A DNA stretch of 64,000 bases, taken from Natronorubrum thiooxidans (lineage in GTDB: Archaea; Halobacteriota; Halobacteria; Halobacteriales; Natrialbaceae). Location: NCBI RefSeq assembly GCF_900156475.1, contig NZ_FTNR01000004.1, positions 186,001 through 250,000 on the forward strand. Reading direction: 5' to 3'. Of this stretch, positions 6,809-11,064 are shown one piece after another. The position numbers and the translations under genes were made by a program. Position 1 is the first letter of the stretch, and each line of letters starts with the position of its first letter. The notes below the pieces were generated by a model that made no database searches, was not told where the DNA came from, and saw only the letters and a list, made by a program, of their open reading frames with translations.

Positions 6809-9502
6809 TCAGGAATAAAACAGCGGCGGTCGTCGCTCACCGCCGTACTCGTCGTCCGGCCGGTATGCCTCGAGCGTCCCGTCCTCCGTGTTCCCGAGCA
6901 ACTGGTCTAACACGTCCACCGCGGCGTCGCGGTGCAGCGGCTGATTGTCGTTGCCACACTGGTCATCCATCACACAGGCGGGACAGCCCCCGATGGAGTT
7001 ACAGTCACAGCCCGCGATGAGTTCGCGCGCCCGCCGGGCGACGGCCTCGAACTCCTCATAGATCGCCCGCGAAAAGCCGAGTCCGCCGTCGATGCCGTCG
7101 TAGATGAACCAGCCGCTCGCAGGCTCGCGCTCGAGGCCGCTGGCGATCTCCCTGACGGTCGCCTCCGCGGCGGCGATATTCTGGGGCGCAGCCCCCGCCG
7201 TTCCGTCGGTGTCCCGATCCCGGCCGTCGGTGTCGTGCTCGAGATGCGAGTCGATCGTCAGCGTCGCGAGCCCGCCGAGGTCGCGTTTGTCGACCAGCAA
7301 CTCGAGCGGGGCGACGCCGATCGTGGCGTGTTCGGCCGCGTGAAGCCCGCCCGCGTAGCCGAGGTGGGCCGTTTCCGCGAGGCCGTCCTCGAGGTCGGGC
7401 AGGGAAAAATCGCGGTACTTCTCGATCAGCGCCGTCTCGACGCGCTGGGGAACCTCGAGCCAGCAGAGCTGGGTGTCCATCGACAGCGGCGGATTGTCAG
7501 TCGGGATCGATTGGGCCTTCTGTTTCCCGCCGTGGATCGCGACCTCGTCGTAGGTGCCGTGATAGACCAGCACCCGGCCGCGACCGAAGTGCAACGTAAA
7601 GTCGCCGATCTCGCGGGACCGCTCGGAGACGGCGTCGAGCACCGTCACGTCCGTCCGCGTGCGCGTGTAGTAGTCGACGTCCGTCGGCCGAAGCGTTACC
7701 GACGGCCGCGGCGAACCGTGCTCGACCGCGGTTACTTCGTACTGCTGACCCTGGTGGAGCCGCACCGCACCCTCGTGGAAGTCCCGCAGGACCCGTTCTT
7801 TCGCCAGCGGCTCCATCTCCGGATCGTGTTCGTCGTCGACACCGTCGGCGAGTCGCACCTCGTACTCCTCGCCGGTCGTCGAATACAGCGAAATCGAGCC
7901 CTGTGGTCGGGGCGGGCCAGTGTACGAGACCCCCGTCTCGAGCGACCCGATGAGTCGGCCGGCGCGTCGCCACATCTCGACGGCCCGCTCGAGTCGGTCG
8001 CGCTCGACGAACGTCCCAGCGTCGTCGGCCTCGAGTGCGAGTTCGTCGGCCGCACACAGCAAGTGCTGGGCGAAAACCGCGTCGTTGTCGATATCGACGA
8101 CGGCGTCCTCGACGTCGGTCTCGAGCAGATAGGCGGGGTTTGCGGCGATGTACTGATCGAGCGTGCGGTGTTCGGCGACGAGCACCGAGAGCGCACGGTT
8201 GGTTCCCCGCCCGGCTCGGCCGATCTGCTGCCAGAACGACTGGCGCTGGCCGGGATAGCCGAGTTGGACCGTCGCGTCCATCTCGCCGACGTTGATCCCC
8301 AACTCGAGGGCGTTGGTCGAGGCTACCCCGTCGAGGACGCCCGTTTTGAGCTGGTGTTCGGTGCCGTGGCGATTCCGCCGGGAGTGGCCAGCGTGGTAGG
8401 GTTCGATGGCGGCGCCGCGTTCGGGGTTCGTGTAGTACCGGCTGCGATCCCGCCGATGTTTCGACGCGCGCTTGACCGAGAGTTCGGCGAGCTTTCTCGA
8501 GGGGGTAAACAGCAGCGTCTGGGCGTCGTGGTAGGTCAAATGCGAGAGCAGCTTCGGGGCCTCGACGGTGGCCGGGACGCGTTCGACGACCGTGTCGTCG
8601 GCATCGCCATCCGGTGTCTTGTCAACCTCGCCGGACGGATCCCGTCCGTCGCCTGTCCCCTCGCGCGCACGCGGCGGCGGGTTCCAGAGCACCAGCTCCC
8701 GCGGCCCCGTCGGCGAGCCGTCCTCGTCGACGACGGTCACCGGCTCGTCGAGCAGTGCCCGCGAGTGCGCGCCGGGGTTGCCGATCGTCGCGCTTGTGAG
8801 GACATAGCGCGGGTCGGCGTCGTAGTAGGTAAGAACTCGTTTCAGCCGGCGAACGATCCAGGCGACGTGCATGCCGTGGACGCCGGTGTAGGTGTGCGAT
8901 TCGTCGATCACCACCAGCTCGCAGGCCGAGAGAAAGCGCGCCCAGCGGTCGTGGTCGTGGAGGTACGTGTTCACGCCAGCGAAGTTCGAGATGATGACGT
9001 CGGCCTCCTCGCGAATCCGTCGTCGCGTCTGGCCTCGTTCGGTGTCGCCGTCGTAGACCCGAACCGAAATCTCGAGGCCGAGGGCGTCGAAGAAATCGTT
9101 CAGTTCCCGCTCCTGATCTCGAGAGAGCGCTTTCGTCGGATAGAGGACGTACGCCGTGGCGTCCTCGCCGCGGGCCCGGGCCTCGAGGACGTTACGGGCG
9201 ATCTGGAGGGCGTAAATTCGAGTTTTCCCGGAGGACGTACTCGTGGCGACACAGACGTTCTCGTCGCGTGCGAGCGCCTCGAGGGCGTCGGCCTGGTGTG
9301 TGTAGAGGTCGTTCTCGAGCGGGGCCGCGAGTTCGGGACGGAGTACGTCCCCGTTCGGGACCGTCACAGCCTCTCGACCCGGGAGCTCGAGGCGCGTGAC
9401 GTCGTTCGGGTCGTGATACCGTGGAAACGTCTCGAGCAACTCGTCGCCGGTGATCGGGATCGTCGCCCGCTCGTCGCCTCGCGTGTCGTCGGTCTCGTGC
9501 AT
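6809..9502 (-). CDS. DEAD/DEAH helicase with C-terminal DUF1998 cysteine cluster (MrfA/YprA-like)
   Basis: An 897-residue SF2 helicase. A Q-like motif LYTHQADAL is near 67-75. Walker A TSTSSGKT is at 87-94, motif II DESH at 200-203 and motif III TSAT follows. The C-terminal helicase lobe includes STNALELGINVG and QQIGRAGR. A cysteine cluster near C832, C834, C840, C843 and C849 marks the DUF1998 domain. Bacterial MrfA (YprA) has this layout and acts in DNA repair with an exonuclease partner. The start is ATG 9502: its A is shared with the TGA of the upstream nuclease gene (TGATG), implying translational coupling. The frame also reaches a TTG at 9505, which is less likely. Confidence 0.9.
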   Translation of the reverse strand: MHETDDTRGDERATIPITGDELLETFPRYHDPNDVTRLELPGREAVTVPNGDVLRPELAAPLENDLYTHQADALEALARDENVCVATSTSSGKTRIYALQIARNVLEARARGEDATAYVLYPTKALSRDQERELNDFFDALGLEISVRVYDGDTERGQTRRRIREEADVIISNFAGVNTYLHDHDRWARFLSACELVVIDESHTYTGVHGMHVAWIVRRLKRVLTYYDADPRYVLTSATIGNPGAHSRALLDEPVTVVDEDGSPTGPRELVLWNPPPRAREGTGDGRDPSGEVDKTPDGDADDTVVERVPATVEAPKLLSHLTYHDAQTLLFTPSRKLAELSVKRASKHRRDRSRYYTNPERGAAIEPYHAGHSRRNRHGTEHQLKTGVLDGVASTNALELGINVGEMDATVQLGYPGQRQSFWQQIGRAGRGTNRALSVLVAEHRTLDQYIAANPAYLLETDVEDAVVDIDNDAVFAQHLLCAADELALEADDAGTFVERDRLERAVEMWRRAGRLIGSLETGVSYTGPPRPQGSISLYSTTGEEYEVRLADGVDDEHDPEMEPLAKERVLRDFHEGAVRLHQGQQYEVTAVEHGSPRPSVTLRPTDVDYYTRTRTDVTVLDAVSERSREIGDFTLHFGRGRVLVYHGTYDEVAIHGGKQKAQSIPTDNPPLSMDTQLCWLEVPQRVETALIEKYRDFSLPDLEDGLAETAHLGYAGGLHAAEHATIGVAPLELLVDKRDLGGLATLTIDSHLEHDTDGRDRDTDGTAGAAPQNIAAAEATVREIASGLEREPASGWFIYDGIDGGLGFSRAIYEEFEAVARRARELIAGCDCNSIGGCPACVMDDQCGNDNQPLHRDAAVDVLDQLLGNTEDGTLEAYRPDDEYGGERRPPLFYS

Positions 9503-11064
9503 CAAAAGTCACCCAGTCCGGTTTGTTCGCTGTCTGCCGTCTCGTTCGCGTCGTCCCGCGTCGCGTGCGCCGTCGTACCAGAACCCGTCGCATCGTCGCT
9601 CGAGGTGGCTGCCGCGTCCCGCAGTCGCTCGTAGACGTGCCACAGCGCCCGGCAGTCGTCCTCGCAGTAGGCCTCGTGGCGGTCCCACTCGAGTGGCTCT
9701 CCGGTTCGCATGAATCGCTGGTACGCCGCGGCCGTCTGCGCTCCGTCGAGGCCGGTCGCCGCCCCCTCGTAGCCGAGCGCGTCGGCGACGACGGCGAGTT
9801 CGTTCGTCCGCCCGGGGAGGATCGCGTGCTCGTTATGGACGGCCCAGGCGTAGAGGTCGAACGTCGGGATCGACTCCCAGTCGTCGACGTAGTAGGGGAC
9901 GTATCTGGCGATAAACGAGCCGAGGTGGCGGTAGTCGAACCGTCAGCCGTTCCAGGTGAGCAGCGCCCTGTCGGGGTGGATCCCGAGCAGCCAGTCACAG
10001 AAGGCCTCGAGCACCGGTCCCGGATTGCTCGGCTCGTCGCGTTCGACGAACGCTCGATAGGTGTCGGTTACGGGGTCGTAGACGCCGATCTGCCAGATGA
10101 TCGTCGGCGAGAGCCCGTCGGTTTCGATGTCGAGACACAGCGGCGGCGTCGACCAGCGCTCGCCCGGGAGCGGCTCGTCGGTGCGTCGGCGCGGCTCGCC
10201 CGTCTCGAGAACCGTGGCGTGTTGGTGGATCGTCCGCGCACGGTCGCGGCCTACGCCGGGAAGTTCGGCCAGCGTTTCGAGGGGGAGCTCGAGCAACTCG
10301 TCGCGTGTAGTCACGCCGCGTTCGGCGAGGCGAGTCGCAGTCTTCGGGCCAATGCCGGAGACGGCCTCGAGGCCGAAGTCCGTCACCGAGTACGTCTCCA
10401 CGCCCTCGATACCGTCGGCGGACAGCGCCAGTTTCGCGATCGAGCGGTCGCTACCGTAGCCCTCGACGGGGCCGCCACCCCGAACGCGGACGGAGACGCA
10501 GTCGTCGCCGGCCGGGGAACAGGCCACTTCGGGCTCGTGATCGACGGCGCGGACGACACCCGTGTCAGCCTCGAGGTGCCACAGTTCGTCGTAGCCGGCC
10601 GGCTCGCTCCCCGTCAGCAGCGTCGTCACGCGGCCGGTCGGCAACGCCGCGGCGAGGGTGGCCGCCCCCTCGAGGCTCGTCTCGAGCGTCGTCGGTCGCA
10701 CGCTCGTGGCGACGTCGTCACAGACGAGCGCGACAACGTCGGTCGACTCTGTGAGCGCACTCGAGACGGCCGATGGCTCGGCCTGCAGCGCTCTGCGTCC
10801 GTGGCTGACTGCGATCTCGAAATCGTCGCTCCCGAACTGCTGTCGGGACAGCGGCCCGTCGCCGGTCTCGAGCGGCGGATGGAACGTCGGCGCGTCGAAC
10901 ACCCGCCGCGCGCGGGCGAACGCCTGTGGCTCCCGGTCGGGGCCGAGCACCCAGACGGCGTCCGGCTCGAGGGTCGCGTCGACGTCCGCGAGCGTCTCGA
11001 CTGGTCGGTTGATGAGCGCCGACGGTGGGAGAGCAAGCAGCGACACGTCGGCTCGAGCGGTCAT
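9502..11064 (-). pseudogene. HhH + DnaQ-like (RNase_H_2/YprB-type) exonuclease interrupted by in-frame TGA
   Basis: The frame from ATG 11064 codes a ~230-residue N-terminal region, a helix-hairpin-helix pair (about 231-283, VSGIGPKTATRL and LPGVGRDRARTI) and a DnaQ-like nuclease domain. Exo I is LDIETDG (D312, E314). At codon 374 (bases 9943-9945) the Exo II motif reads TWNG-stop-RFD instead of NGxxFD. Without any frameshift the domain then continues to the Exo III region YCEDDCRALW and ends at 9502. A TGG-to-TGA change at base 9943 would explain it. It could be a true inactivation, a sequencing error or recoding. Downstream is the coupled helicase; upstream is the divergent thyA. The closest functional analogue I know is MrfB (YprB). 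Confidence 0.8.

Follow-up and report, generated by a model that had tools for sequence, protein, structure and literature searches.

A probable recent nonsense codon in the exonuclease gene of a haloarchaeal nuclease-helicase module

The closest described counterpart of the gene pair considered here is MrfAB (YprA/YprB) of Bacillus subtilis, a helicase and an exonuclease of mitomycin C repair (PMC11194089). The two loci are alike in that adjoining genes encode a YprA-type helicase with an MZB domain and an RNase_H_2 exonuclease of the DnaQ/DEDD superfamily (PMC11194089). For overlapping genes in haloarchaea, studies of Haloferax volcanii found strict translational coupling in all nine pairs analyzed, translation of the downstream gene falling close to zero once its upstream partner carried a premature stop (PMC6728339). 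The present pair lies in Natronorubrum thiooxidans within a window of 64,000 nucleotides, which is the whole stretch analyzed and forms part of one contig (C40) of a 4.21 Mb draft genome of the Natronorubrum group. In this copy the nuclease gene is interrupted by an in-frame TGA, and we favor a recent, ordinary nonsense allele in the nuclease gene of a nuclease-helicase operon as the explanation, with a probability of about 0.74.

The nuclease gene (positions 9502 to 11064, minus strand) runs from an ATG at 11064 through 520 codons to a natural TGA at 9504-9502, and its codon 374 is a TGA at 9943-9945 where the closest relatives have TGG. The local context is CTC ACC TGG AAC GGC TGA CGG TTC GAC TAC, which places the stop inside the conserved Exo II motif NGxxFD (codons 372-377, 9934 to 9951, minus strand), read here as NG*RFD, with D377 falling after the stop. 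Beyond codon 374 the frame stays open and homologous through YCEDDC up to the natural TGA. The initial annotation had reported just such a TGA within Exo II, followed by homologous sequence, and it was right in giving codon 374, a length of about 520 residues and base 9943 for the third codon position; it gave no strand, which is the minus strand. Its statement that the stop sits exactly at the active site holds for the motif and fails for the residue, which is the first x of NGxxFD and no metal ligand. Since the read-through translation has an RNase_H_2 match in Pfam that spans the stop (E 1e-29), shares about 90% protein identity with the closest relative's orthologue, and yields dN/dS values on either side of the stop that are given below, the sequence is a genuine coding frame and not a chance one.

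The gene divides into a degenerate phosphoesterase-like N-terminus, a helix-hairpin-helix (HhH) segment and a DEDDy exonuclease, the last of which is broken by the TGA. The HhH segment (HHH_5 in Pfam) occupies codons 232-282 (10219 to 10371, minus strand). Within the exonuclease, the Exo I motif D312-x-E314 (10123 to 10131, minus strand) precedes the stop and the Exo III motif Y466-C-E-D-D470 (9655 to 9669, minus strand) follows it. The five catalytic residues D312, E314, D377, Y466 and D470 are invariant across 22 homologues, and three of them (D377, Y466 and D470) lie past codon 374. In the same homologues His463 is near-invariant, seven residues before Asp470, and the Tyr466-x3-Asp470 spacing is that of DEDDy enzymes. 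A predicted structure of the read-through protein has a pLDDT of 85, with residues 489-520 forming a low-confidence tail; model residues 305-481 match the proofreading domains of B-family DNA polymerases with Z scores of up to 15.8 over 163 residues (rmsd 2.5). With an Exo I DxE, an Exo II Asp, an Exo III YxxxD and a predicted DnaQ fold, the intact relatives appear to be DEDDy exonucleases, and this copy would be one only if read through. No Pfam TPR match was found in the nuclease C-terminus. PADLOC returned no match for the nuclease and general helicase matches only for its partner.

The N-terminal domain (codons 1-230, 10375 to 11064, minus strand) is assigned to the calcineurin-like phosphoesterase fold by fold comparison. 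Folded alone, it reaches a pLDDT of 91 and a Z score of 10.9 to Rv0805, with Mre11 and purple acid phosphatases also among its fold matches, and it recalls the B-subunits of eukaryotic replicative polymerases. Pfam gives no phosphoesterase match for these codons and the metal-binding motifs are not conserved, and on the model the region has the look of a phosphoesterase domain inactivated within a repair nuclease. The genome also encodes a distant paralogue (L002:679-2226, G000:C24), which combines a Pfam Metallophos domain bearing GDD, GNDD and GHCH motifs with RNase_H_2, and perhaps represents the ancestral two-enzyme form.

The alignment of orthologues that the initial annotation called for identifies the residue at codon 374 as Trp in the closest relatives. 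TGG occupies the position in all seven of the closest genus orthologues, which backs the earlier proposal that one G-to-A change turned TGG into TGA, and a scan of genome contigs for the closer Halobacteria orthologues recovered TGG in 24 of 25 and CGG in the other. In distant homologues the position holds H, Y, W, N, E, D, R or L. As judged from this alignment, residue 374 is replaceable, neither catalytic nor a metal ligand, and the harm would therefore come from truncation and not from the loss of Trp374 itself. The nuclease gene is carried by 102 of 125 family genomes, and an internal stop occurs in this copy only. The TGA flagged in another genome (G011) proved to be a gene's own terminal stop, as did the TGA "stops" in topoisomerase homologues. 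Frameshifts are present in the orthologous nuclease genes (L042, L049) of the Natrialba hulunbeirensis and Halostagnicola sp. A56 drafts, either as independent breaks or as draft errors; these two sequences suggest that the gene is occasionally broken in other genomes as well.

The proposed course of events begins with a single, very recent G-to-A transition that would have changed Trp374 from TGG to TGA. Translation would then end after 373 residues, and the product would consist of the phosphoesterase-like part, the HhH segment and no more than the initial third of the exonuclease domain. Because three of the five catalytic residues would be missing, the truncated nuclease is expected to be null or nearly so, and we infer from the sequence a loss of nuclease activity. 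A protein split in two by internal initiation was considered and rejected, since the only in-frame start past the stop in a list of ORFs of at least 20 amino acids, an ATG at 9711 (9502 to 9711, minus strand), opens a frame of 69 codons that could not encode a nuclease at such a length. This restart lies 232 bases downstream of the stop and after Exo II.

Immediately downstream, the partner gene (6809 to 9502, minus strand) encodes a YprA/MrfA-type DEAD/DEAH helicase of 897 amino acids with an MZB domain, identified by Pfam, and comparison with the closest genome finds its frame intact. The stop of the nuclease gene and the start of the helicase gene overlap as TGATG (9500 to 9504, minus strand), with a Shine-Dalgarno-like GGTGA just upstream, and in other members of the genus the helicase start lies within a few bases of the nuclease stop. 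Ribosomes ending at codon 374 would miss this overlap, so that helicase translation would drop too. Given the overlap, the coupling known from Haloferax volcanii and a sole restart so far along, the helicase is probably poorly translated because of the upstream stop despite its intact sequence, and the whole nuclease-helicase module would probably be silenced. The earlier view that the helicase stays intact is thus borne out for the sequence as compared with the closest genome and likely fails for translation; a TGATG-linked loss had not been raised in it.

Across the family the two genes travel together. The nuclease is found in 102 genomes and the helicase in 103, with both present in 102 of the 103, and among the listed genomes the two sets differ by one. 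That genome (G094) has a helicase at 48% identity and, at the threshold applied, no match to the nuclease, and is the only family genome of this kind. In all 42 pairs checked the two genes are adjacent and co-directional. One genus mate lacks both genes, another has two pairs, and the present genome has a single nuclease and a single helicase of this type. Since the pair is gained and lost together, loss of the module appears tolerable.

Regarding the age of the lesion, dN/dS against the closest genome is 0.25 for the whole gene, with 0.26 for the part before the stop and 0.22 for the part after it. Other genus pairs give 0.17-0.36 for the nuclease, suggesting that the gene always evolves in this manner, while the helicase and twelve sampled neighbor genes give 0.05-0.20. 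The branch leading to this copy bears 12 nonsynonymous and 21 synonymous changes, as against 17 and 15 for the sister, and at columns invariant in the outgroups the copy shows, apart from the stop, a single private change, as against four in the sister. The branch of the stop-bearing gene thus displays neither decay nor an excess of amino-acid change, from which it follows that the lesion is young or not real. More fully, it may be too young to leave a trace, not real, or not fully inactivating, and base rates favor the first. It counts against the young-lesion reading that the missing signal of relaxed selection is equally expected under a base error or in a gene that still functions.

That base 9943 is real in the strain is something we infer from one base in one 62-contig draft. 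If the base were instead a sequencing or assembly error, the strain would have TGG and an intact nuclease gene. The draft status of the source, the constrained and undamaged remainder of the gene, and the standing of this copy as the sole one with an internal stop among 102 gene-bearing family genomes all speak for such an error. Isolated substitution errors are rare in draft assemblies. Moreover, the conserved genes of the window, set against those of a relative, are free of indel-type or other nonsense damage, and the assembly looks clean; when about 56 kb was compared with the closest genome at the protein level, codon 374 was the only interior stop in a conserved gene. The other "stops" in that comparison were located ahead of start codons, in frames that are antisense or non-coding, or at the edge of the window. 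Of the explanations named in the initial annotation, recent inactivation fits best, sequencing error is possible though unlikely, and recoding is disfavored.

Readthrough at a low or regulated level, with a near-cognate tRNA-Trp decoding UGA-C, would make the gene down-tuned and not dead. Such a reading would account for the sequence after the stop being without decay, could draw on the tolerance of position 374 for several residues, by which an inserted residue could be harmless, and has a parallel in bacterial in-frame stops under purifying selection that were interpreted as readthrough (PMC7918605). However, the lesion is too young for missing decay to be informative, no relative shares the stop, such in-frame stops last only a short time (PMC7918605), and the cases demonstrated in a review of archaeal recoding are confined to Sec, Pyl and frameshifting (PMC8211752). 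We therefore regard readthrough as improbable. More doubtful still is the idea that the UGA works as a translational dimmer, with a little full-length nuclease made by readthrough and the amount of helicase set as well through the TGATG overlap; if true, one stop codon would tune a whole repair or defense module in a haloarchaeon. Dedicated recoding, whether as selenocysteine or by a genome-wide reassignment of UGA to tryptophan, is scarcely credible. Although the TGA stands exactly where relatives have TGG, those relatives carry Trp and not Cys at codon 374, and 26 of the 37 genes in the window end in TGA. The genome gave no match for SepSecS, the best matches to tRNA-Sec fell below the cut-off and belong to normal tRNAs for Arg, Leu and His, and the anticodon TCA is absent from all tRNA genes found; thus neither SepSecS with tRNA-Sec, nor a UCA-anticodon tRNA, nor an avoidance of TGA as a stop was seen. 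The tRNA search did not recover tRNA-Trp, probably because of its long intron.

The main value of the analysis is one of correction, in that the TGA would reflect a nonsense allele of an ordinary kind and very recent origin, or else a base-call error, and not a new genetic code. If the base is real, the strain offers a natural experiment in which both halves of the module may have been lost through one base and coupling, and it would be useful for asking what role this largely unstudied haloarchaeal nuclease-helicase module has.

Compared with known systems, the module is MrfAB-like on sequence grounds and its exonuclease is not MrfB. An RNase_H_2/DEDD domain does occur beside a YprA-family helicase gene, as in the MrfB type, while a DEDDh set, in which His precedes the final Asp, and a C-terminal TPR domain were not found. 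MrfB is a DEDDh enzyme with His in Exo III and a C-terminal TPR, whereas the haloarchaeal exonuclease is DEDDy (Tyr466) with HhH and a phosphoesterase-like N-terminus in place of a TPR; it is on these differences in catalytic set and extra domains that the name MrfB is withheld. In addition, the nuclease gene comes first here, and the present copy is interrupted by a stop. Neither the solved structures matched by sequence nor the fold hits listed include MrfB, an absence that does not argue against kinship. The proofreading domain of B-family DNA polymerases shares the fold and the style of Exo II and Exo III (NGxxFD, YxxxD); unlike those polymerases, the haloarchaeal protein has no polymerase domain, is fused to HhH, has a helicase partner and shows about 18% identity. 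As for the lesion, it resembles young prokaryotic pseudogenes (PMC7918605) in being a single substitution with the remaining frame open and the signature of purifying selection kept. It departs from the nonsense alleles of that study in that the stop is found in one genome only and, through the TGATG overlap, is likely to act on the helicase gene as well by polarity.
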